Assembly: GCA_020851255.1 (NCBI GenBank)
Contig: JADZDA010000009.1
Coordinates: forward strand, 1-33,272
Length of the DNA: 33,272 bases
Direction: 5' to 3'
Source: Burkholderiales bacterium
GTDB lineage: Bacteria > Pseudomonadota > Gammaproteobacteria > Burkholderiales > Casimicrobiaceae
Of this stretch, positions 166 through 28,007 are shown piece after piece; the stretch's first letter is position 1, and each line of letters opens with the position of its first letter. The position numbers were made by a program, and so were the translations under genes. Below the pieces are notes generated by a model. The model worked only from the letters and a program-made list of their open reading frames with translations, was not told where the DNA came from and searched no databases.

Positions 166-543
166 TCAGGGCGATGGGCGCACGATGCCTCGCGCGCGGT
201 AGGCGTCGGCGGCCTCGCGTACGAATGCCGCGACCCTCGGCATGTCCTGGGAAGCGAGGTCGTCGGCGAGACGATCGAGTTCGGCCCAGGTCGCGCGCCC
301 GGGACGCAGCATCGCGTAGATCTCGAACACGCGCTCGTTGGGGACGCGCGTGAGTTCGCCGGCCCGCCGCAGGTTCTCGGCGAGCTGCGGATGTCCGGCC
401 GCCTCGGCGGCCGCGGCCTGCACGTCGAGCTGTTCGCGGCTGATGCGGAAATCGTCGCCGCCGCTCCGGCCGTCCCGCAACGCTTCGATCGTCAGGTCGC
501 CGAGCGGACGACCGGTCCAGGCATGCACGGTCGCGGCGCTCAT
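166..543 (-). CDS. pduE: Diol dehydratase small (gamma) subunit
   Basis: This 125-residue protein is the small subunit of an adenosylcobalamin-dependent diol/glycerol dehydratase, which converts 1,2-diols to aldehydes. The recognisable core runs from TGRPLGDLTIEAL near the N-terminus through PQLAENLRRAGELTRVPNER and LRPGRATWAEL to a C-terminal AAFVREAADAYR helix. It lacks the longer N-terminal extension of enterobacterial PduE (about 170 residues), which is linked to solubility and shell targeting. Its ATG overlaps the TGA of the upstream large/medium gene (ATGA, 540-543), so the two are translationally coupled. No reactivase or microcompartment shell gene follows within the window. Confidence 0.9.
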   Translation of the reverse strand: MSAATVHAWTGRPLGDLTIEALRDGRSGGDDFRISREQLDVQAAAAEAAGHPQLAENLRRAGELTRVPNERVFEIYAMLRPGRATWAELDRLADDLASQDMPRVAAFVREAADAYRARGIVRPSP

Positions 544-2843
544 CGCTCCTCCACCGATCCGGCCGTCGCGACACCCGGGCGCGCGAGGTCCGCGGCTCCC
601 CCGGCGTGCCCGGCGGGTTCAGCGGCCGGACGCAGTTCCGCCGGCGGGCGGTCGCGCCGCACGCTGCGCGTTTCGCGCAGGTGCATCAGCGTCGTCTGCA
701 CGATCAGGCGCAGCCGCGCGGTGTTGTCGCTGCGCACCGGGATCGGCGGCACCGGCTTGCGCTGCGCGTGCAGCGCGGCGTTGCGGCCGATATGCCGGTA
801 GACGTCGAGGTCGAGGTTGGGCGCCATCGCGAAGAGCTCGAGGTTCTCGAGCGGGACGAGGTCCTCGCGGTGGATCACCGTCGTGCCCTTCGACTGGATG
901 CCGATCGCCACGCCCGAGCCGGAGAGCTTCGCGCCCGCGTGACCGATGAAGGCGCAGTCCGACGTGTGGTGTATGCGGACGATCCGCGCCGCGACGCCTT
1001 CGGACCGGATGCCCGACACGATCGCGTCGAGCACCGCCCGGTGATCGAGGCCGCCGATCGTCCTGGTGATGGCCTCGCCGAACGCCGGACCGATCGCCAC
1101 GACGACCTCCCGCCCGGATCCCCGCTGCGCCGGACCGGTTTCCACCAGCCAGCCCGCGGCGCCCGACGCCGCGAGCCGGTCCCCGTAGTGTCGCGGGTCC
1201 CAGGCCTGCGGCAAGTCCTGCAATTGCGCCCAGCGTTCGCCTTCGACGCGATACCCGGTGCCCGGACCGCGGTAGTCGTTGGGATCGGTGAGCGCGCTCA
1301 AGACCCGGTAGTCCCGATCGAAGATCGCCGACGGCTGCAGGTAATCACCGATCACGCGCTGCCGCTGCATCGAGAGCACGTTCGCCGCGACGTCGGCGTA
1401 GCCGGCGGCGTCGAGCGCACGCACGACATCGAGCGCGGTCATCGGCCCGGCGAGCAGCGACTGCGCCGCGTCGATGTCGGCCACGCGGTCGCGGTCGGGC
1501 ATGTCCTCGGAGCCGTACGCGCCGGTCGCGGCCAGGATCTCGGCCTCGGTGATCGGCGGGAAGCCCAGCCGCGCGAACACCGCCTGCATCGCGCGCGCCG
1601 CGCGCTCGCGCGCCGCGAGCACGCGCGCCTCGTCGACCGGTGTGATCCCGCCGTCGATCCTGAGGTCGCGCTGCAGGACGTGCCAGTCGTCCAGCTCGGA
1701 GACGTCGAAGTTGCCGCCGCCGAACATGTTGTCGGGACGCGGAATCGCGCCGTAGCCCGACGTGATGAAGTCGGTACCGGGGATGAACTGCAGCATGAGC
1801 TTCGCGGCCTTGCGGATGTCCGAATGCGAGGCGAGCGCGTCGTTGCCCGACGCGACCTCGAGTCCGAGCAGCATCGCGATCAGGTTCTCGGCCAGCACGG
1901 CACGCACGCCGTCGGGCAGCGACTCGGGCAGCGCGATGCAACTGATCGATCCGTTCTGCGAGCCCTGGCTGCCGGCGGCGCGCGTGACCAGCAGGCTGCG
2001 CGCCTCGAGGTAGAGCATCGACCGGCCCTCGGCGTGCCCCATCAGCGCCGGCGCGCCGGCGCCGGAGGTGAACCGCGTCTTGACCCCGCGGCTCGCGTAC
2101 GCCGCGCCGAGGAACGCCTTCGACCAGGGCGTGTCGTCGCCGTCGACGAACGCGCGCTCCGTCGCGTAGACCGAAAGCGTCTCCGAGTAGCTCGTGAGTC
2201 CCTTGAACGCGAGCTTGAGGTTGGTCGCCTCCTCGACCGCGCACTGCGTGAGGACGCCGGGACGTCCGACCTGCGTGCCGACGAGCAGCGCCAGCGCGTT
2301 GAACGGCGCGTAGCGTCCGACCGCTGCGGTCGTCTCGACCTCCGCGAAGCCGCGCAGCGCCGCCTCCGCCGCGTCGGCGGCGAGCAGCACCGGGTGCTCC
2401 TTGCGGTTGGTCACGTGCGCCTGGTTGGCGGGCGTGCGCCGGCCGCGCATCTTCGCCAGCCCCATCATCATCTCGAGCACGTTCATCGCATCGACGATCT
2501 CGACGATCTTGGCCGGCGTGCATCCGGCGAAGATCGCGAGCACGTCGGCCCGCGGCACGTTGATGTCGACGATCATCCGCGCGATCTCCTGCGACGGCGT
2601 CGACATCGCGCGCTCGGCGACCGTTACGTCGATCGCGTGCCGGGCGATGAACCGCTCGACCAGGTCGAAGTCCGCGGCCGCGACCCCGTCCATTTCGACG
2701 ACCGCGCCGTCGCGGATCGCGATGCCCGGCCTGGGGTCGTGGGGACTGCCGATCGCCGACAGCCCGACCTCCGGCCAGGGCCGGATGAAGGTCTCGCGGT
2801 TCACCGGCCGTTCGGCCAGTCGCTCGAATCGCCTGGATCGCAT
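540..2843 (-). CDS. pduCD: Fused large and medium subunits of B12-dependent diol dehydratase
   Basis: The 767-residue protein joins the TIM-barrel large subunit (about residues 1-555) to the cobalamin-contacting medium subunit (about 575-727). A short linker rich in Gly and Ala joins them, and the charged C-terminal tail is low-complexity. Residues used for catalysis and substrate binding in Klebsiella oxytoca diol dehydratase are all present at the same numbers: Q141, H143, E170, E221, Q296, D335 and S362. The enzyme therefore looks catalytically competent. I chose the ATG at 2843 because GAGGG lies 6 bases upstream; the open frame runs further upstream (to 2996) but that part does not look like the family. 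The gene is translationally coupled to the small subunit. The substrate (1,2-propanediol, glycerol or another diol) cannot be told from sequence. Confidence 0.9.
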   Translation of the reverse strand: MRSRRFERLAERPVNRETFIRPWPEVGLSAIGSPHDPRPGIAIRDGAVVEMDGVAAADFDLVERFIARHAIDVTVAERAMSTPSQEIARMIVDINVPRADVLAIFAGCTPAKIVEIVDAMNVLEMMMGLAKMRGRRTPANQAHVTNRKEHPVLLAADAAEAALRGFAEVETTAAVGRYAPFNALALLVGTQVGRPGVLTQCAVEEATNLKLAFKGLTSYSETLSVYATERAFVDGDDTPWSKAFLGAAYASRGVKTRFTSGAGAPALMGHAEGRSMLYLEARSLLVTRAAGSQGSQNGSISCIALPESLPDGVRAVLAENLIAMLLGLEVASGNDALASHSDIRKAAKLMLQFIPGTDFITSGYGAIPRPDNMFGGGNFDVSELDDWHVLQRDLRIDGGITPVDEARVLAARERAARAMQAVFARLGFPPITEAEILAATGAYGSEDMPDRDRVADIDAAQSLLAGPMTALDVVRALDAAGYADVAANVLSMQRQRVIGDYLQPSAIFDRDYRVLSALTDPNDYRGPGTGYRVEGERWAQLQDLPQAWDPRHYGDRLAASGAAGWLVETGPAQRGSGREVVVAIGPAFGEAITRTIGGLDHRAVLDAIVSGIRSEGVAARIVRIHHTSDCAFIGHAGAKLSGSGVAIGIQSKGTTVIHREDLVPLENLELFAMAPNLDLDVYRHIGRNAALHAQRKPVPPIPVRSDNTARLRLIVQTTLMHLRETRSVRRDRPPAELRPAAEPAGHAGGAADLARPGVATAGSVEER

Positions 2844-3155
2844 GTTGGCCCTCGGTGCGCGTCTACACGACGCGGCACAGGCTTGCGTCGACAATGATCG
2901 CGGGTCGGCTCTGGCTCGTTCGCGCTGCGAAATCGACGAATGCCAGCACGATGTCCCGGGACAAACCGAGGCACGCGATGGAGGCCCACGCCGCAAAGCG
3001 TCGGCAGACGTGCCTGCGGATTATACGGCGCGACGCCGCCGTGTGGCTCGGTGGCTGCGCGCCGAGGAGCGATGCGCGAACCGCGCGACGCCCACGGATC
3101 GCGTCGGTCCCTCGATCCGGTACCATCGCCGCTCTCCAGCCGCGGAGCCGTGACC
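2844..3155. other. Divergent intergenic region, dehydratase / GNAT
   Basis: This 312-base region separates the diol dehydratase operon (leftward) from the acetyltransferase gene (rightward). It holds a perfect TATAAT on the minus strand (3020-3025) and a TACCAT on the plus strand (3121-3126), either of which could be a -10 element. I looked for a cobalamin riboswitch B12 box because of the B12 enzyme and did not find one. No convincing gene is visible here. Confidence 0.5.
3020..3025 (-). promoter_or_regulatory. Candidate -10 element (TATAAT) for the diol dehydratase operon
   Basis: The minus strand reads TATAAT, an exact match to the sigma-70 -10 consensus, inside otherwise GC-rich DNA. It would give a leader of about 170 nt before the ATG at 2843. 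No good -35 hexamer is found 16-18 bases upstream, so an activator would probably be needed if it is real. Confidence 0.3.
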
Positions 3156-10330: not shown

Positions 10331-10399
10331 ACTTACATAATTTTGGAATGAACTACCGATAACATCGCATTTGAAAGGTCGAAAAGCAACTAAATTCCG
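10331..10399. promoter_or_regulatory. AT-rich divergent control region with Lrp-like site
   Basis: By hand count this 69-base stretch has 24 G/C, about 35 percent, in a very GC-rich neighbourhood. It separates the Lrp-type regulator from the oxidoreductase. TACATAATTTTGGAA (10334-10348) fits 11 of 15 positions of the E. coli Lrp consensus YAGHAWATTWTDCTR. TAACAT (10360-10365) is a possible plus-strand -10. The site touches the regulator's start, which would fit autoregulation. Confidence 0.5.
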
Positions 10400-13300
10400 A
10401 TGCCGAGGGCGAAACTCGACCCGATGCAGCGTGACCCCGTGCAAGTCGACACGACCGAGGCGACCGGCGACCCGTCGGATCCGCCCGCGGAATTGCGGGA
10501 TTTCCGCCTCGACGACGCGCTGACCGCCGGGCGCGGGCGGATCCTGATCTCGGGCACGCAGGCCTTGGTCCGGCTGGCGCTCACACAGGCGCGCCTCGAC
10601 CGGGACCGCGGCCTGGCGACCGCCGGCTTCGTCACCGGCTACCGGGGATCCCCGCTCGCCGCGCTCGATCTCGCCCTGTGGAAATCGCGGCCGTTGCTCG
10701 ACACGGCCGGCATCCGCTTCCTGCCGGCGATCAACGAGGAGCTCGCCGCCGCGGCCGCGCTGGGCAGTCAGCGGGTAGCGTCGGATCGCGAGCGCACGGT
10801 CGAAGGCGTTTTCGCGCTGTGGTACGGCAAGGGGCCCGGCCTCGATCGCGCCGGCGACACGATGCGCCACGGCAACGCCTACGGCGCCTCGCCGACCGGA
10901 GGCGTGCTCGCGGTCGTCGGCGACGACCACGGCTGCGTGTCGTCGGGCATGCCGTTCCAGAGCGACCGCGCGTTCATCGCCTGGAGCATGCCGGTCCTGC
11001 ATCCGGCGACGCTCGGCGAGATGATCGAATTCGGGCTCTACGGCTGGGCGTTGTCCCGCTATAGCGGTGCCTGGGTCGGCCTGAAGGCGATCTCGGAGAC
11101 GGTCGAGAGCACGGGCGGTGTCGACCTCGATGCGATACGCACCGGATTCGGCGCGCTGCCCGACTTCCGACCGCCGTCCGGCGGACTGCACTTCCGGCTG
11201 CAGGACCTGCCCGGCCCGGGCATCGAAGAGCGCCTCGCCGCCAATCTCGACGCCGCGCGCGCGTTCGCGCAGGCCAATCCGATCGACAAGCTGGTCATCG
11301 CGCCCCCGGCGGCGCGCGTGGGCATCCTGACTTGCGGCAAGGCGCACCTGGACGTGATGGAGGCGCTGCGCCGGCTGGAGATCCCGCGGGGCGCGCTCGC
11401 CGCCGCCGGCGTGCGCCTCCTCAAGATCGGACAGGTCTTCCCGCTGGATCCGGTGCGATTGCGGACGTTCGCGGAAGGACTCACCGAGATCCTCGTCGTC
11501 GAGGAGAAGGCGCCGATCGTCGAGGAGCAGGTCCGCGCCCTGCTCTACGACGCCGACCGGCGGCCGCGCGTACTCGGCAAATCCGACGGGCACGGCGGCG
11601 CGCTGCTGAAAGCGACCGGCGAGACCCGACCCTCGCGGGTGATGCCGGTGCTCGCCGACTGGCTCGCACGCCACGCCGCCGCACTGGACCGGCGCCCGCG
11701 CGTGCCGGTGTTCGCGCCCACGCCGGTGCTCGCGAACGAGGCGGACGGCGTGCGCCGCGTGCCGACCTTCTGTGCCGGCTGCCCGCACAACCTGTCGACG
11801 CGGGTCCCGGACGGGTCGGACGCGAGCGGCGGCATCGGCTGCCACGGCATGTCCGGCTGGATGAACCGCCGCAACTCGTTCGCGCAGGTGCCGATGGGTT
11901 GCGAAGGCGTCGACTGGGTCGGCCAGTCGGCGCACACGCGTACGAAGCACCGCTTCCAGAACATGGGCGACGGCACCTACTCGCACTCCGGATATCTCGC
12001 GATCCGACAGGCCGTCGCCGCCGCTGCGAACATCACCTACAAGATCCTCTACAACGACGCGGTGGCGATGACCGGCGGCCAGCCGGTCGAGGGGCGGCTC
12101 ACGGTCCCGCAGATCGCCCGGCAGCTCGAGGCCGAGGGCGTGGCCCGGCTCGCCGTGGTCGCACGGGATCCCGCCCACTGGCGCGAGCGGTCGAACGAGT
12201 TCCCGCCGGGAACCCGCTACGCCGGTCGCGACGAACTGGACTCGGTGCAGCGCGAACTGCGCGACACGCCGGGGGTCACCGCGCTCCTCTACGACCAGGT
12301 CTGCGCCACCGAAGAGCGGCGCCGGGTTCGACGCGGACTCGCCCGGGCCCGTTCGACGCGGGCGTTCATCCACCCGGACGTCTGCGAGAACTGCGGCGAC
12401 TGCACCGCGCTGTCGAACTGCGTCGCCATCCAGCCGATCGACACTCCGCTGGGACGCAAGCGGCGCGTCGACCCGTCGACCTGCAACGACGATCTCGCCT
12501 GCGTGCCCGCCGAGTGCCCGGCGATCGTCACGCTCGACGGCGCCGTGCCGAAGCGCTGGGCGATCGATCCGGCGCACGCCGGCGGCATCGAGCGCGCCGC
12601 CGCGGCGTTATCCCGACCGCCGGCGTGGCGCTGGACCGGACCCTACGATCTGGTCGTCGCCGGCGTCGGCGGTACCGGCATCGTCACGCTGGGCGCGCTC
12701 GTCGCGACCGCAGCCCACCTCGAAGGCCTCGCGGCATCGGTACTCGACTTCACCGGCATGGCGCAGAAGGGCGGGTCGGTGATCGCCTACGTCCGGCTCG
12801 CCCGCGACCCGTCGCTGCTCCATCAGACGCGGATCGACACGCAGCAGGCCGACGCGATGCTCGCCTGCGACCTGGTCGTCGGCGCATCGCCCCAGGCGCT
12901 CGACACGCTCACGCGCGGGCGCACGCGCGTCGTCGCCAGCCTCCACGAAGCGGCGACCGCCGCGTTCATGTCCGACCCGGACGCCCGCGTACACGCACAG
13001 GCGCTGCTCGCGAAGATCCGGCACGCGATCGGCTCGGACGCGGTGATCGCGCGCGACGCCCACGCGCTCGCCCGGCGCTTTCTCGGCGGAACGATCACCG
13101 CCAACGTACTGCTGCTCGGCGCCGCCTGGCAGGCCGGCCTCGTGCCGGTCGGGCTCGCGGCGCTCGAGCGCGTCATCGAGCTCAACGGCGTCGACGTCGC
13201 CGCCAACCGGCTCGCGTTCTCGATCGGCCGGCTCGCGGTCGGCGATCCGCCGGCGCTGGACTCGCTGGCGGGCGACGAAGGCGGCACCGGGAAGTCGGTC

Positions 13301-13996
13301 GCGGACGGGAATCTCGACCGCGTGATCGCGGACTGGCGCGCGCGACTCACCGCCTGGCAGGACGGCCGCTGTGCGCAGCGCTACGTCGCCCGGGTCGAGC
13401 GCGTGCGCGCCGCCGAGCGCGCGATCGCCGGGGATCGCGACGGCGACCCCGAAACCCTGACGCGCGCGTTCGCCGCGCAGTATGGACGGCTGATCGCGGT
13501 CAAGGACGAGTACGAGGTCGCACGGCTCTATGTCGACGGCAGCCTCGAGCGCGCGATCGCCGGCGACTACGAGAAGACGAGCCGCGTGCGCTACCACTTC
13601 GCGCCGGAAGCGCTCGTGCGCCGGCGCGCGGACGGGCGTCCCGCGCGCAAGATCGCGCTGGGACGCTGGGCGAGACCGCTGCTGGGGCTCGTCGCCGCCG
13701 CCAGGGTGCTGCGCGGCACGCGCCTCGATCCGTTCGGGTCGGGCGCCGAGCGGCGTGCCGAGCGCGCGCTCGCCGACGAGTACGCGGATGCCGTGCTGGC
13801 CTGTGTGGAGTACGCCGGCGCGGCCGGGCGCGCGAAGGCGCTCGAACTCACTCGCCTGGCGGAGTCGGTCCGAGGTTTCGGCCGCACGCGGCGCGAGTCC
13901 GCCACGCGACTGCGCGCGGCGCTCGCCGCCGCGACCGGCGCGGATACTCCCGCGGCAGGGGGCGGCGCACGCGCCGCTCAGACGTACGCCGGGTAG
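10400..13996 (+). CDS. Indolepyruvate ferredoxin oxidoreductase family protein (fused)
   Basis: This 1198-residue protein fuses the alpha and gamma halves of an indolepyruvate:ferredoxin oxidoreductase, an oxygen-sensitive enzyme that oxidatively decarboxylates aryl-2-oxoacids to acyl-CoA. The N-terminal pyrimidine-binding domain starts near GFVTGYRGSPLAALD. The TPP region has FCAGCPHNLSTRV and GIGCHGM (about 455-486). An iron-sulfur region has C662, C665, C668 and C674 and a second cysteine group (CNDDLACVPAEC). The gamma domain begins near 745 with VVAGVGGTGIVTLG. The C-terminal 250 residues form the helical extension common to these long fusions. ATG 10400 is taken as start; ATG 10424 is an alternative. 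Divergent Lrp suggests amino-acid-dependent control. The real substrate may be a branched-chain or aromatic 2-oxoacid. Confidence 0.9.
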   Translation: MPRAKLDPMQRDPVQVDTTEATGDPSDPPAELRDFRLDDALTAGRGRILISGTQALVRLALTQARLDRDRGLATAGFVTGYRGSPLAALDLALWKSRPLLDTAGIRFLPAINEELAAAAALGSQRVASDRERTVEGVFALWYGKGPGLDRAGDTMRHGNAYGASPTGGVLAVVGDDHGCVSSGMPFQSDRAFIAWSMPVLHPATLGEMIEFGLYGWALSRYSGAWVGLKAISETVESTGGVDLDAIRTGFGALPDFRPPSGGLHFRLQDLPGPGIEERLAANLDAARAFAQANPIDKLVIAPPAARVGILTCGKAHLDVMEALRRLEIPRGALAAAGVRLLKIGQVFPLDPVRLRTFAEGLTEILVVEEKAPIVEEQVRALLYDADRRPRVLGKSDGHGGALLKATGETRPSRVMPVLADWLARHAAALDRRPRVPVFAPTPVLANEADGVRRVPTFCAGCPHNLSTRVPDGSDASGGIGCHGMSGWMNRRNSFAQVPMGCEGVDWVGQSAHTRTKHRFQNMGDGTYSHSGYLAIRQAVAAAANITYKILYNDAVAMTGGQPVEGRLTVPQIARQLEAEGVARLAVVARDPAHWRERSNEFPPGTRYAGRDELDSVQRELRDTPGVTALLYDQVCATEERRRVRRGLARARSTRAFIHPDVCENCGDCTALSNCVAIQPIDTPLGRKRRVDPSTCNDDLACVPAECPAIVTLDGAVPKRWAIDPAHAGGIERAAAALSRPPAWRWTGPYDLVVAGVGGTGIVTLGALVATAAHLEGLAASVLDFTGMAQKGGSVIAYVRLARDPSLLHQTRIDTQQADAMLACDLVVGASPQALDTLTRGRTRVVASLHEAATAAFMSDPDARVHAQALLAKIRHAIGSDAVIARDAHALARRFLGGTITANVLLLGAAWQAGLVPVGLAALERVIELNGVDVAANRLAFSIGRLAVGDPPALDSLAGDEGGTGKSVADGNLDRVIADWRARLTAWQDGRCAQRYVARVERVRAAERAIAGDRDGDPETLTRAFAAQYGRLIAVKDEYEVARLYVDGSLERAIAGDYEKTSRVRYHFAPEALVRRRADGRPARKIALGRWARPLLGLVAAARVLRGTRLDPFGSGAERRAERALADEYADAVLACVEYAGAAGRAKALELTRLAESVRGFGRTRRESATRLRAALAAATGADTPAAGGGARAAQTYAG

Positions 13997-20043: not shown

Positions 20044-21038
20044 CACGCCCCCGTGCCTTCGAGGCCGAACTTGACGATGTTGCGCTCGGCGATCGCCTGG
20101 ATGTGCGCGAGCCGCGCCTCGCCGCCGGGCTGGAACAGGTGCGCGAAACGTTTCTGCAGCCTGAGGTAGTCGGCGGTCGGCGTCCGCCGGCGGATCTTGG
20201 TCGACGACACGATCTCGCCGTTCACCGCCTCGAACAGCGGGAACAGGCCCGACTCCACCGCCGCGCGGGCGACCTTGATCGTGTCGGCCGGCGCGCTGCC
20301 CCAGCCGAGCGGACAGGGCACGTGGATGTGCACGTAGCGCGCGCCGCGGAATTCCATCGCGCGCGTCACCTTGTACTCGAGATCGCGCAGGTTGGCGACG
20401 CTCGCGGTCGCGACGTAGGGAATCTGGTGCGCGACCGCGATCAGCGGGACGTTCTTGCCGGTGCCGAACACGTTCCCCGGTTCCGGACCCATCGCCGGCG
20501 TCGTGGCGGTGCGCGCGGCCGGCGGCGTCGCGCTCGAGCGCTGGACGCCGGTGTTCATGTACGCCTCGTTGTCGTAGCAGAGATAGAGGACGTCGTCGTT
20601 GCGTTCGAACATGCCGGACAGGCACCCGAAGCCGATGTCGGTCGTGCCGCCGTCGCCCCCCTGCGCGATCACGCGCACGTCGTCGGTGCCCTTGCGCCGC
20701 ATCGCCGCGGCGACACCCGAGGCGACCGCCGCCGCGTTGCCGAACAGCGAGTGGATCCACGGGATCTGCCACGACGTCTCCGGATACGGCGTCGAGAACA
20801 CCTCGAGGCAGCCGGTCGCGTTGACGGCGACGATCTTCCCGCCGGTCGCGCGCATCGCGGCGTCGATCGCGTAGCGCGCACCCAGCGCCTCGCCGCAGCC
20901 CTGGCAGGCGCGGTGGCCGGAGGTGAGCGCGTTCGCGCGCTGCGCCTCCGCCTGGACCGAGCGCTCGTGCGGCGCGAGCAACCGGTTGCCGACGGTGAAC
21001 GTGCCGGTCTGGTAGAACCTGACGGTCTGCATCTCCAT
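20043..21038 (-). CDS. porB: 2-oxoacid:acceptor oxidoreductase beta subunit (TPP-binding)
   Basis: The 331-residue subunit binds thiamine diphosphate and one [4Fe-4S] cluster. The TPP motif is GGDGGTTDIGFGCLSGMFER with the downstream YDNEAYMNTG. The four cluster cysteines expected in this family are C45 and C48 (HRACQGCGEALG), C77 (NATGCLEVF) and C242 (HVPCPLGWG). Together with the alpha subunit it forms the decarboxylating active site that makes acyl-CoA. AGGGGA precedes the ATG at 21038 and the gene follows alpha by 9 bases. The symbol denotes the family; the substrate (pyruvate, 2-oxoisovalerate, phenylglyoxylate or other) is not resolved. Confidence 0.9.
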   Translation of the reverse strand: MEMQTVRFYQTGTFTVGNRLLAPHERSVQAEAQRANALTSGHRACQGCGEALGARYAIDAAMRATGGKIVAVNATGCLEVFSTPYPETSWQIPWIHSLFGNAAAVASGVAAAMRRKGTDDVRVIAQGGDGGTTDIGFGCLSGMFERNDDVLYLCYDNEAYMNTGVQRSSATPPAARTATTPAMGPEPGNVFGTGKNVPLIAVAHQIPYVATASVANLRDLEYKVTRAMEFRGARYVHIHVPCPLGWGSAPADTIKVARAAVESGLFPLFEAVNGEIVSSTKIRRRTPTADYLRLQKRFAHLFQPGGEARLAHIQAIAERNIVKFGLEGTGA

Positions 21039-21047
21039 GGCTTTCCC

Positions 21048-22301
21048 CTACCCGATCCGCGCCGAGACCGTGCCCAGGCGCTTCAGCAGCGCCTCGGCGG
21101 TCGGACCGCTGCGGCGCGTGCCGGCCTCGCGGTCGAGCTCGTGCGCGACGAGGTCGGTGTTGAGGTCGAGGAAGGTCACCGCCTCCAGCGCGTCGCGCCC
21201 GGCCTCCTCGAACAGGCGCTTCAGCGATGCGCGCGTGATCGCGCGCCCGCCCAGGCCGGCGACGACCGTGTAACCGTTGAGCTGGATGCCGGACAGCGCC
21301 TTGCGCACGCCGTCCGACACGATGCCGCCCAGACCGACCGCGAGGCACTTCTCCAGCACGACGACGCGCTTCGCGTGCATGAGCGCCTCGCGCAGCGCGG
21401 CGAGCGGGAACGGCCGGAACGAGGTGATCGCGACCGACCCGATCGCCACGCCCGCCTCGCGCATCTCGTCGACGACTTCCTGGATCGTGCCGTTGACCGA
21501 GCCCAGCGCGACGACGATCGTCTCCGCGCCTTCGGTACGGTACGGACGGATCAGCCCGCCCGACGCGCGCCCGAAGCGGCGCTCGAACTCGGCGGCGAGC
21601 GCGGGGATTCGCTCGAGCGCGCGCATCTGCTTGTGGTGCGCGAGATAGCGGACCTCGGTGAACGCCTCGGGTCCGACCATCGCGCCGATGGTCACCGGCT
21701 CGGCCGGGTCGAGCACCTGCCGCGGCTCGAACGGCGGCAGGAAGGCGTCGACCTCCGACTGCGAGGGAACGTCGACACGCTCGTAGGCGTGCGTCAGGAT
21801 GAAGCCGTCCATGCACACCATCACCGGGCAGGAGAGTTCCTCGGCGAGCCGGAACGCCTGGATGTGCAGATCCAGCGCCTCCTGGTTGGTCTCGGCGTAG
21901 AGCTGGATCCAGCCGGCGTCGCGCATCGACATCGAGTCCGAGTGGTCGTTCCAGATGTTGATCGGCGCGCCGATCGCGCGGTTGCCGATGGTCATCACGA
22001 TCGGCAGGCCCAGCCCCGACGCGTTGTAGACCGCCTCGGCCATGAACAGCAGCCCCTGCGAGGACGTCGCCGTGTAGGTGCGCACGCCCGCCGCCGACGA
22101 GCCGATCGCCACGGAGAGCGCGGCGAACTCGCTCTCCACGTTGATGAACTCGCAGTCGGCGAGTTCTCCGGCCTTGACCATCTCGCCCAGTCCCTCGACG
22201 ATGTGCGTCTGCGGCGTGATCGGATAGGCGCAGATCACCTTCGGCCGGCACAGCGCGACCGACTCGGCGATCGCGTGCGAGCCTTCAGTCTGCTTGAGCA
22301 T
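21048..22301 (-). CDS. porA: 2-oxoacid:acceptor oxidoreductase alpha subunit
   Basis: The 417-residue subunit combines the pyrimidine-binding transketolase-like domain and the transketolase C-terminal domain. Visible are CAYPITPQTHIVEGLGEMV, the substrate-side NVESEFAALSVAIGSSAAG, and the C-terminal ETIVVALGSVNGTIQEVVDEM and SFRPFPLAALREAL. The length is normal for PorA/VorA. GGAG lies 7 bases before ATG 22301. The start overlaps the end of the gamma gene by 17 bases, so the two are coupled. It supplies the main substrate-specificity surface of the complex, but I cannot read the substrate from the motifs. Confidence 0.92.
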   Translation of the reverse strand: MLKQTEGSHAIAESVALCRPKVICAYPITPQTHIVEGLGEMVKAGELADCEFINVESEFAALSVAIGSSAAGVRTYTATSSQGLLFMAEAVYNASGLGLPIVMTIGNRAIGAPINIWNDHSDSMSMRDAGWIQLYAETNQEALDLHIQAFRLAEELSCPVMVCMDGFILTHAYERVDVPSQSEVDAFLPPFEPRQVLDPAEPVTIGAMVGPEAFTEVRYLAHHKQMRALERIPALAAEFERRFGRASGGLIRPYRTEGAETIVVALGSVNGTIQEVVDEMREAGVAIGSVAITSFRPFPLAALREALMHAKRVVVLEKCLAVGLGGIVSDGVRKALSGIQLNGYTVVAGLGGRAITRASLKRLFEEAGRDALEAVTFLDLNTDLVAHELDREAGTRRSGPTAEALLKRLGTVSARIG

Positions 22302-23834: not shown

Positions 23835-23991
23835 CGTCGGGAACGTTTCCAGGGACGGGGGGATATCTCGGGTCGGCCGATGGGCGCCCGGCCCCGGAGT
23901 CCGGCCGCCTCGGAGCTGTGGCCGGGCGTAAGCCCGGAGTGCAGCCGCGCCCTGGCCCACCGCCGGGTGTTCGCGATGCGCCGAATTGGAG

Positions 23992-23997
23992 TATAAG
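23992..23997 (+). promoter_or_regulatory. Candidate -10 element (TATAAG) for the MgtE-type gene
   Basis: TATAAG matches five of six positions of the -10 consensus and sits in a short AT-rich run (AATTGGAGTATAAGG), giving a leader of about 70 nt before ATG 24073. The -35 region is poor. No M-box-like structure is evident in the leader. Confidence 0.25.
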
Positions 23998-24072
23998 GCG
24001 CGGTATCCGGCGCCGGCCCGGGTCGTTGCATGTCGCCGGATGGCACCCGATCCGACCAGAGGGAGTTTATCG

Positions 24073-25089
24073 ATGCGGCTGCGACGCAAGAAGGCCGGTG
24101 CCGACGACCATCCGTATCCGGAGCGCTCGGTCGGCCGGATGATGGAACCGCCGCTCGCGGTGTTCGTCCCCGAGCAGACGGTCGGCGAGGCGATCGATTC
24201 GATCCGCGAACTCGTCAAGCAGGCGTTCATCACCTACGCCTGGGTGCTCGAGGTCGACGGCAAGCTGGTCGGCGTGATCACGATGCGCGACCTCCTGTTC
24301 TCCGAGCGCAGCGCCAAGCTCGGCGAGGTGATGCTGCGCCAGGTGTTCGCGCTGCGCGCCGACCTGCCGATGCTCGACGCGATGAAGCTCACGCTCGACA
24401 AGCATTTCCCGGTCTACCCGGTCGTCGACGCCGAGGGCCGGCTCCTGGGCACGGTGCGCGGCCAGAAGATGTTCGAGGCGCAGGCGGTCGAGTTGACCGC
24501 GCAGGCCGGCGCGATGGTCGGTGTCACCGGCGAGGAACGGCTCGCCACCCCGTGGCTGCGCAGCCTGTGGTTCCGCCACCCCTGGCTGCAGCTCAACCTG
24601 CTGACCGCGTTCGTCGCCGCCGGCGTCGTCGGCGCCTTCGAGGGCACGCTCGAGAAGATCGTGCTGCTCGCCGTGTTCCTGCCGGTGCTCGCCGGCCAGT
24701 CGGGCAATACCGGCTGCCAGTCGCTCGCGGTCACGCTGCGCGGCATGACGCTGGGCGAACTCAAGCCGGGCGGGACGCCGGCCGCGGTGACCAAGGAAGC
24801 GATCCTCGGCCTCTGCAACGGCGCGCTGGTCGGCGTGACCGCCGGCCTGGGCATGTTCGCCTACGCCTGGATGCAGGGCAACGCGCAGGCGCTCACGCTC
24901 GCGTTCGTCACCTTTCTCGCGATGATCGTCGCCTGCGTGGTCAGCGGTGTCTCCGGCGTGCTCGTGCCCACCGCGCTGCAGCGGATGGGGGCCGACCCCG
25001 CGACCGCCTCGAGCATCTTCCTGACGACCGCGACCGACGTCGTCAGCATGGGATCGTTCCTGGGACTCGCGACGCTGATCCTGCTCTGA
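24073..25089 (+). CDS. MgtE-type divalent cation transporter lacking the N domain
   Basis: The 338-residue protein contains a CBS pair (about 22-145) followed by the MgtE membrane domain of about five helices (175-338). The membrane domain shows the family signature AGQSGNTGCQSLAVTLRG and a conserved Asp near the end (D322 in LTTATDVVSMGSF), equivalent to the pore Asp of Thermus MgtE. The helical N domain of full-length MgtE (about 450 residues) is absent, so magnesium-dependent gating may differ. AGAGGGAG lies 8 bases before ATG 24073. It is probably a Mg2+ or other divalent cation importer. It converges on the antiporter gene. Confidence 0.88.
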   Translation: MRLRRKKAGADDHPYPERSVGRMMEPPLAVFVPEQTVGEAIDSIRELVKQAFITYAWVLEVDGKLVGVITMRDLLFSERSAKLGEVMLRQVFALRADLPMLDAMKLTLDKHFPVYPVVDAEGRLLGTVRGQKMFEAQAVELTAQAGAMVGVTGEERLATPWLRSLWFRHPWLQLNLLTAFVAAGVVGAFEGTLEKIVLLAVFLPVLAGQSGNTGCQSLAVTLRGMTLGELKPGGTPAAVTKEAILGLCNGALVGVTAGLGMFAYAWMQGNAQALTLAFVTFLAMIVACVVSGVSGVLVPTALQRMGADPATASSIFLTTATDVVSMGSFLGLATLILL

Positions 25090-25147: not shown

Positions 25148-26470
25148 TCAGGACCGGTGGCCGGCCGCCTGCGCCTCGGCGAGCTTGCGGTTCATTTCGT
25201 CGCGCTGCTCGGCCATCTTCGTGACCTGCTCGCGGATCGCGGGATAGCGCCGCAGGATTTCGTCGAAGTCGCTGCGCGTGAGCTTGAGGAACTTGCAGTA
25301 GTCGAGCGCCGTGACGTCGGCGGAGCGGGTGCCGCCGCTGATGAGCGCCATCTCGCCGAAGAAGCTGCCTGCGCCGAGCCGTATGTGCTTGCCGGCGACG
25401 ACCACCTCGACCTCGCCCGACGAAACGAAGAACACGGCGTCGGCCTCGTCACCGTGGCGGATGATCCGCTCGCCCGGCTGCGCCGCGTGCGGCAGCAGGT
25501 GCAGCAGCACGACTTCGCGCTGCTCCGAGGTCAGGCTCGAGAACATCGGGAAGTGCGCGACCAGCTCCTCGGGCGACATCGTCTTGTGCGCGGCGGCCTT
25601 CGCCTCGGCCGCGATACGGGCGTTCTCGAGGTCCTGCACGAGCAGCGCGAACTTCGGGGCCCGCGCGTCCTCGACGATCGTCCGGACGCCGGGTCGCGCG
25701 AGGGCCGCGGCGGTGATCGCGGTTCGGCCGGCGAACACGAGTCCGTTGAGCGTGATCGAGATGATCGATCCGGCGAGCAGCAGGGACAGGCCCTCCGGCG
25801 GCAGCAACGCGAAGCCGATGCCCAGCCCGGCGAGGATGAACGAAAACTCGCCGATCTGCGCGATCGACCCGGCCACGTACGTCGCCGTGCTCAATGGAAA
25901 GCCCATCGCCAGCACGATCGCGGTCGCGTTGAGCGCTTTCACGACCAGGATGAACGCGAGGATCGCGGCGACCATCAGCGGCTCGCGCCAGAGTATCGAC
26001 GGGTCGAACAGCATGCCGACCGACACGAAGAAGAGCACGGCGAACGCGTCCTGCAGCGGCAGCGAGTTCGCCGCCGCCTTGTGCGACAGGTCCGACTCGT
26101 TCAGCACGACCCCGGCGAAGAACGCGCCGAGTGCGAAGGAGACGCCGAAGAGCTCCGCCGACCCGAAAGCGATGCCGAGCGACAACGCGAGCACCGCCAG
26201 CGTGAACAGCTCGCGCGAGCCGGTCCGTGCGACCTGCCGCAGGATCCACGGCAGCACCCGGGGACCGACCAGCAGGACGATCGCGCCGAACGCGGCGACC
26301 TTCACCAGCGTCAGCGCGAGCGACGCGACCAGTCCGTGTTCGCCGGCACCGCCGGGAACCTTGCCGCCGAGCGCCTCGGCGAGCGCGGGCAGCAGCACGA
26401 GGACCATGACCATCGTCAGGTCTTCGACGACCAGCCATCCGATCGCGATCCGGCCGTTGGGGGCCGACAT
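25148..26470 (-). CDS. Cation:proton antiporter C-terminal part with cNMP-binding domain
   Basis: The 440-residue frame continues the antiporter begun at 26893, after an in-frame TAG. It carries the remaining membrane helices of a KefB/YbaL-type CPA2 exchanger (family segment NGRIAIGWLVVEDLTMVMVL near the start). A cyclic-nucleotide-binding domain follows (about 310-420), with the phosphate-binding cassette FGEMALISGGTRSADV including the conserved Arg. A short helical tail closes it. The ATG at 26470 directly follows the stop (TAGATG) and GAGGAG lies 9 bases before it, so reinitiation could produce this part separately. Otherwise the whole locus is a pseudogene or the stop is a sequencing error. 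Confidence 0.75.
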   Translation of the reverse strand: MSAPNGRIAIGWLVVEDLTMVMVLVLLPALAEALGGKVPGGAGEHGLVASLALTLVKVAAFGAIVLLVGPRVLPWILRQVARTGSRELFTLAVLALSLGIAFGSAELFGVSFALGAFFAGVVLNESDLSHKAAANSLPLQDAFAVLFFVSVGMLFDPSILWREPLMVAAILAFILVVKALNATAIVLAMGFPLSTATYVAGSIAQIGEFSFILAGLGIGFALLPPEGLSLLLAGSIISITLNGLVFAGRTAITAAALARPGVRTIVEDARAPKFALLVQDLENARIAAEAKAAAHKTMSPEELVAHFPMFSSLTSEQREVVLLHLLPHAAQPGERIIRHGDEADAVFFVSSGEVEVVVAGKHIRLGAGSFFGEMALISGGTRSADVTALDYCKFLKLTRSDFDEILRRYPAIREQVTKMAEQRDEMNRKLAEAQAAGHRS

Positions 26471-26893
26471 CTAGTTGCGCTCCTCGACCCCCTTCAGCAC
26501 CACGACGGTGCTCGCGACCGACAGGCACAAGCCGAGGATCATACCCGCGCCCAGCGTCCACCCCCAATACTTCGCGAGCACGATCCCCACACCGGTGGCA
26601 ATCGCGATCTGGACGACCGCACCGACGACGACGATCCGGCGCACGGCCATCAGGTCGGCGACCGAGAAATGCAATCCGACCCCGAACATGAGCAGGATGA
26701 CGCCGATGTCGGCGAGCTGCCCGGCGATCTGGCTCGTCGCGACCATGTCGGCCGCGTAACGCCCGATCAGGACACCGGCGACCAGATAGCCCACGAGCGG
26801 GGGCAAGCGCAGCCGGGTCGCGATCCAGGCGAAGATGAACGCGAGCACGAATCCCACGGCGAACGTGGCGATGATGGAAACGTCGTGCGGCAT
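26471..26893 (-). CDS. Cation:proton antiporter N-terminal part, ends at in-frame TAG
   Basis: The 140-residue frame starts MPHDVSIIATFAVGFVLAFIF and contains the first helices of a KefB/YbaL-type K+/H+ or Na+/H+ antiporter, including LRLPPLVGYLVAGVLIGRY and GVILLMFGVGLHFS. It ends ...STVVVLKGVEERN-TAG, exactly where relatives continue as EERNLLDxxNGRIA. The next frame resumes in the same phase with no gap, so only one codon is affected (a Leu codon such as TTG to TAG would explain it). Both parts together give about 581 residues, normal for YbaL-like proteins with an extra cyclic-nucleotide domain. Confidence 0.75.
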   Translation of the reverse strand: MPHDVSIIATFAVGFVLAFIFAWIATRLRLPPLVGYLVAGVLIGRYAADMVATSQIAGQLADIGVILLMFGVGLHFSVADLMAVRRIVVVGAVVQIAIATGVGIVLAKYWGWTLGAGMILGLCLSVASTVVVLKGVEERN

Positions 26894-27053: not shown

Positions 27054-28007
27054 CTACGCGGCCCCGCGCGCCGTGGCCACGATCCGCTTCGCAGCCGCGA
27101 CCACGCCCAGAACCGCGAGGCCGGCGGAGACACCGACGATCGCGTCGTAGACGAGCGAGACGACCACGGCGAGCGCCGCACCGGCGCCGGGTCCGCCGCT
27201 CACCGAGGCGGCGACCGACACCGCCGCATGGTGCAACGGCGGCACGCCATGGACGAGGATGCCGCCGCCGACCAGGAACATCGCGGCGGTTCCGGCGACC
27301 GACAGCCCCTTCATCAGCCAGGGCGCGCCGGCGAGGATCGCTGCGCCGAACGACCGCTGCAACCGCGCCCACGCGCCGTCGCCTTCGCGGCGGGCGAGCC
27401 AGAGTCCGGCGTCGTCGAGCTTGACGATACCCGCGACCAGCCCGTAGACGCCGACGGTCATCAGCACGGCGACCGCAGCCAGCACGAGGACGCGCGTCGG
27501 GAACGGCTGCATGCCGACCGTGCCCAGCGCGATCACGATGATCTCGGCGGACAGGATGAAGTCGGTCCGGATCGCGCCCTTGATCCTGTCGCGCTCGATC
27601 GCCGCGAAGTCCGCGTGCGGATCGACCAGCGCGGCCTTGAGCGCCTCGTGCTCCGCGTCGTCCTGCGTGCCGTGCAGTGCGCGGTGCGCCAGCTTCTCGA
27701 CGCCCTCGTAGCAGAGGAAAGCCCCGCCGATCATGAGCAGCGGCGCGATCGCCCAGGGCGCGAACGCGCTGATCGCGAGCGCCGCCGGCACGAGGATCGC
27801 CTTGTTGACCGTCGAACCCTTCGCGACCGCCCAGACGACCGGCAACTCGCGTTCGGCGCGCACGCCGGCGACCTGCTGCGCGTTGAGCGCGAGGTCGTCG
27901 CCGAGCACGCCGGCGGTCTTCTTGCCGGCGACCTTGGTGAGCAGCGCGACGTCGTCCAGGACGCTCGCGATGTCGTCGAGCAGCGCGATCAGTCCGGTGC
28001 CGGCCAT
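27054..28007 (-). CDS. yedI: DUF808 inner-membrane protein (YedI-like)
   Basis: The 317-residue membrane protein matches the DUF808/YedI family in length (about 300) and in motifs. The start is MAGTGLIALLDDIASVLDDVALLTKVAGKKTAGVLGDDLALN, followed by helices including AILVPAALAISAFAPWAI and LLMIGGAFLCYEGVEKL. A charged loop follows (residues about 110-150), then AEIIVIALGTV and further helices. The family has no established function. It starts 39 bases after the dcp stop on the same strand, so dcp and this gene may be cotranscribed. Confidence 0.88.
   Translation of the reverse strand: MAGTGLIALLDDIASVLDDVALLTKVAGKKTAGVLGDDLALNAQQVAGVRAERELPVVWAVAKGSTVNKAILVPAALAISAFAPWAIAPLLMIGGAFLCYEGVEKLAHRALHGTQDDAEHEALKAALVDPHADFAAIERDRIKGAIRTDFILSAEIIVIALGTVGMQPFPTRVLVLAAVAVLMTVGVYGLVAGIVKLDDAGLWLARREGDGAWARLQRSFGAAILAGAPWLMKGLSVAGTAAMFLVGGGILVHGVPPLHHAAVSVAASVSGGPGAGAALAVVVSLVYDAIVGVSAGLAVLGVVAAAKRIVATARGAA

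Follow-up and report, generated by a model that had tools for sequence, protein, structure and literature searches.

The window analysed here, one entire contig of 33,272 bases (G000:C9), belongs to a draft assembly that totals 4.28 Mb over 313 contigs and for which computed estimates give 86% completeness and 4.8% contamination. The feature under study lies on the minus strand, 25148–26893(-), a strand that the initial annotation had left unstated. Translation of this stretch gives, in a single frame, 140 residues ending in EERN, an in-frame TAG, 440 residues beginning with MSAPNG, and a terminal TGA, so that the two frames are in phase and touch, as had been claimed. The N-terminal piece occupies 26474–26893(-), the TAG 26471–26473(-), and the adjoining in-frame ATG, a possible restart codon, 26468–26470(-); the same ATG opens the C-terminal piece, which together with its TGA runs over 25148–26470(-). 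Nine bases ahead of the ATG, where the initial annotation had placed it, stands the Shine–Dalgarno-like GAGGAG (26480–26485(-)), which is also read as two glutamate codons. The TAG site, which is no homopolymer, falls in a polar stretch with a hydrophobic segment on either side, the centres of the hydrophobic windows at residues 121–128 and 156–172 flanking residue 141, the position of the stop.

The two pieces match consecutive parts of each profile or structure compared. In the Pfam profile PF00999 (Na_H_Exchanger), the N-terminal piece covers positions 2–128 (E 2e-19) and the C-terminal piece positions 136–369 (E 8.8e-29); in the NCBIfam YbaL profile (NF007950), they cover positions 1–139 and 146–385; and in solved KefC (8bxg chain), they match residues 16–138 (E 2.4e-9) and 144–367. 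A genome-wide PF00999 search, with three matches in the source genome and the antiporter among them, joins the pieces across the stop, and the domain is thus present at full length (positions 2–369) with one TAG inside; having flagged this TAG, the search method is able to detect internal stops. The codon-usage score is positive and similar on either side of the stop (0.66 and 0.69) and, taken together with the consecutive profile matches, indicates that what lies before and after the TAG belongs to the coding sequence of a single gene. Beyond the remainder of the Na_H_Exchanger domain, the C-terminal piece carries, at its residues 330–409 (25244–25483(-)), a cyclic-nucleotide-binding domain (Pfam PF00027, E 3.9e-19). 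This domain is found instead of TrkA_N, which is absent from the Pfam domains of the antiporter; KefB, KefC, and YbaL carry a C-terminal TrkA-N (KTN) domain. The best scores against the KefB/KefC/YbaL equivalog profiles, 291.9 and 165.2 bits, miss the cut-off of 700, the pieces having been scored apart, which lowers each. Owing to the cyclic-nucleotide-binding tail and the scores below cut-off, we name the predicted product a YbaL-like, CPA2-type cation/proton antiporter with a C-terminal cyclic-nucleotide-binding domain, and not a YbaL. Directly after the break lies a conserved acidic VEDL segment, which has a role in ion binding, with QD in its place in remoter relatives.

The antiporter gene is convergent with a gene for a divalent cation transporter with CBS and MgtE domains (23986–25089(+); Pfam PF01769 and PF00571), and a DUF808 gene lies upstream of it (27054–28007(-); PF05661, E 9.6e-110). 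Among the five genus relatives examined, three (G014, G019, and G001) keep the order MgtE–antiporter–DUF808, with the MgtE neighbour about 82% identical and the DUF808 neighbour 65–67% identical in the same place; in the stretches from the other two (G005 and G015), a search at 45% identity and E 1e-30 recovered neither of these neighbours. On the strength of this kept order, the antiporter is probably a vertical orthologue. That the assembly contains a second, intact copy was considered and rejected, as a DNA search gave a 31-base stub and otherwise no place but this one; the other protein matches in the source genome are 25–33% identical (three of the four others, among the matches listed). 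Elsewhere in the window, the large and medium subunit domains of a dehydratase (PF02286 and PF02288) share an unbroken open frame at 543–2996(-), as they would in a fusion, and a 1200-codon open frame at 10394–13993(+) combines POR and DUF6537 domains, like indolepyruvate-type ferredoxin oxidoreductases.

Relatives were collected by tblastn, with the antiporter as query and an X at the stop, against 112 loci; 111 of them gave a best stretch, and removal of the window's own two left 109. Of these, 90 are at least 52% identical and 19 are remote homologues below 45%; 16 cover at least 550 residues, and the stop position lies within the aligned stretch of every one of the 109. None carries a stop at that position or elsewhere in its best aligned stretch. 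The residue found there is Leu in 53, Glu in 19, Ala in 12, Ile in 9, Val in 8, and another in 8, and the six closest genus orthologues have Glu, Thr, and, in four of them, Ala. The initial annotation was right that a single codon is affected, but the conserved leucine that it saw replaced by the stop is rejected on these counts; the position is a tolerant, variable site within the polar stretch. Searches with the N-terminal piece (E up to 1e-20) gave matches in 11 of 22 genus genomes and 13 of 64 family genomes, counts that take in the source genome. Outside the window, the family genomes gave 16 matches, spread over 12 of the 63 that remain when the source genome is set aside; these matches comprise orthologues and paralogues at 37–77% identity, each lying within a longer open frame of 397–1439 amino acids, and none is split. 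The TAG that was to be sought in related genomes is hence confined to the window in both sets, and the sense codons of the relatives, by the rule that the initial annotation itself had laid down, point to an error or to a mutation of the strain or lineage. The 397-residue match (L020, in G020:C347), a remote homologue, has a frame change about half way, with two tblastn pieces in different frames, and this appears to be a separate lesion, or an error, of that other draft genome.

Apart from the TAG, the gene looks intact. One tblastn piece aligns the entire antiporter gene with the closest relative at 75% identity, with only a three-residue gap in the window's antiporter, and neither tblastn nor alignment against this relative revealed a second stop or frameshift. 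Differences from it at the three codon positions are 0.17, 0.09, and 0.36 in the N-terminal piece and 0.18, 0.13, and 0.37 in the C-terminal piece; for two intact relatives compared with the same closest relative, the values are 0.17–0.18, 0.12–0.13, and 0.32, a pattern that the antiporter shares. Ten relatives agree with one another at 187 columns; the window differs from them at seven of these, within the range of 0 to 21 obtained when the relatives are left out one at a time. Private changes at sites where three outgroups agree number 22 in the window and 11 in the closest relative (p 0.08), distributed as 7 and 5 in the N-terminal piece and as 8 and 5, and 7 and 1, in two parts of the C-terminal piece, and are at best a weak hint of relaxed constraint or a longer branch. 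The initial annotation had argued for a recent event from the want of further lesions, and this reading holds, one in-frame TAG with no other lesion speaking for recency. Neither further lesions nor a loss of codon-level constraint, as expected of a decaying pseudogene, was found in the antiporter, and a young pseudogene would look alike. The constraint comparisons suggest that the stop is young, or has been of little cost so far, and by this measure a functional split would resemble a young pseudogene.

As to what the TAG does, recoding or readthrough as an amino acid, which the unchanged frame and protein sequence past the TAG would permit, is very improbable. The source genome encodes RF1 (prfA) above its cut-off, and a CUA anticodon was seen in none of 40 typed tRNAs, one of the 41 tRNA matches being untyped; since the draft is incomplete and tRNA-Trp and tRNA-Ile are not named among those typed, the missing CUA tRNA is no proof of absence. 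In a rough set of 163 ORFs from 274,715 bases, which includes the N-terminal piece itself and may hold wrong ORFs, 40 end in TAG, 121 in TGA, and 2 in TAA. The other internal TAGs that the initial annotation proposed to look for are missing from the 100 ABC_tran and 62 response-regulator matches of the same genome, 162 in total, which contain no internal stop of any kind. From these four observations genome-wide recoding of TAG is rejected, and TAG is an ordinary stop in this genome. A codon-usage scan of the same 274,715 bases found 19 of 1494 in-frame stops, the antiporter's included, with coding-like flanks on both sides; of the other 18, the 11 inspected by eye all resemble borders between neighbouring genes. 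One of the 11, the TAG at 21048–21050 within the window, was checked with Pfam: a POR_N/PFOR_II gene and then a TPP_enzyme_C gene, of the 2-oxoacid:ferredoxin oxidoreductase type, occupy 20046–22301(-) and meet in frame at this TAG, which is an ordinary gene border that mimics a split gene in a simple scan. Readthrough does find an advocate in PMC7918605 (Belinky and others), where, in the available part of the text, many bacterial genes with in-frame stops are argued, from purifying selection on them, to be frequently read through and not to be pseudogenes. The main rival is instead an error of the consensus or the assembly, in which the population would have a sense codon and only the draft consensus a TAG. 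The fragmented, incomplete, and partly contaminated draft, the single differing codon in an otherwise intact and constrained gene, and the lack of this stop in all 109 relatives speak for such an error, but the 162 stop-free family matches give no general error signal and the TAG site has no homopolymer, and we regard an error as possible but unlikely.

A functional split, in which the halves are made separately by termination–reinitiation and assemble in the membrane, draws on the same features that suggested it to the initial annotation, namely the ATG adjoining the TAG and the GAGGAG upstream of it, and further on the placing of the break in a polar stretch and on the constraint kept in the coding sequence of both halves. 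Termination–reinitiation at overlapping gene pairs is, according to the available text of PMC6728339, established in archaea and bacteria. However, the motif that had been read as a ribosome-binding site is explained as coding sequence: its residues are Glu-Glu or Glu-Asp in all ten of the closest full-length relatives, none of which has the stop, though in only 28 of the wider set of 109, and in the sample glutamate is more often encoded by GAG than by its other codon (2788 versus 898), so that in this branch selection for initiation need not be invoked for the motif. Of internal codons, 6.4% have a start codon of some kind no more than ten codons away together with a Shine–Dalgarno-like match of at least 4, and conservation of the arrangement in relatives, on which a functional split would lean, is lacking in all 109 relatives and all 16 other family matches. 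The exact layout of TAG, ATG, and Shine–Dalgarno-like match is uncommon, though it was noticed after the fact: an ATG adjoining a given internal codon, with a match of at least 4, occurs at 0.27% of the 67,474 internal codons in the sample. Methionine at the restart position, present in 1 of the 109 relatives, is the best point for a split, and this rarity and the 0.27% fit a selected split slightly better than chance. No evidence here supports selection for a reinitiated C-terminal piece, and we judge a functional split improbable overall; the specific version in which the TAG and the rare adjacent ATG form a working split, with N- and C-terminal pieces of 140 and 440 residues made by tight termination–reinitiation from the Glu-Glu codons and assembling into an active protein, is distinctly improbable.

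The best explanation is probably a recent nonsense substitution private to the lineage or strain. It is supported by the lack of the stop in all 109 relatives, the open frames of the 16 family matches, the kept gene order, the lack of a second lesion, and codon-position differences like those among intact relatives, and a single in-frame nonsense codon is an ordinary kind of event in bacterial genomes; in the available text of PMC7918605, in-frame stops in bacterial genes are described as widespread and mostly on the time scale of population polymorphism. By this account, a single nonsense codon would have arisen in the CPA2 antiporter gene, within the polar loop that immediately precedes the hydrophobic segment bearing VEDL, in an event that would be recent and, as far as seen, private to the lineage or strain. 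Most ribosomes would then stop after 140 residues and leave a membrane stub, with the transporter off or strongly reduced; the readthrough argument of PMC7918605, as far as the available text presents it, counts against such a stub. Some C-terminal piece may still arise by termination–reinitiation, since the ATG adjoins the stop and has a purine-rich stretch nine bases upstream of it.

If true, a working split would show how a tiny change can give a membrane transporter two chains in place of one. On present evidence, the locus is a further example of a young nonsense allele, or of an error in a draft genome, and a reminder that a Shine–Dalgarno-like stretch beside a new stop may be plain coding sequence.

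Among known systems, the antiporter resembles the YbaL family of putative K+ efflux transporters (NF007950) and KefC/KefB in that both of its pieces match consecutive parts of their profiles, and in the acidic VEDL segment (QD in remoter relatives) that follows the break. It differs from KefB, KefC, and YbaL in having a cyclic-nucleotide-binding domain in place of their TrkA-N (KTN) domain, and in falling short of the equivalog cut-off. With the termination–reinitiation pairs in the available text of PMC6728339, it shares a stop and a start that touch and a Shine–Dalgarno-like stretch within the upstream frame, whereas those cases are pairs of separate genes and the antiporter is a single gene, interrupted in a single genome. 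The large-scale part of PMC7918605, in its available text, concerns stops shared by at least two species, whereas the antiporter's stop is seen in one genome; what the two have in common is a single stop in a gene that is otherwise under constraint.
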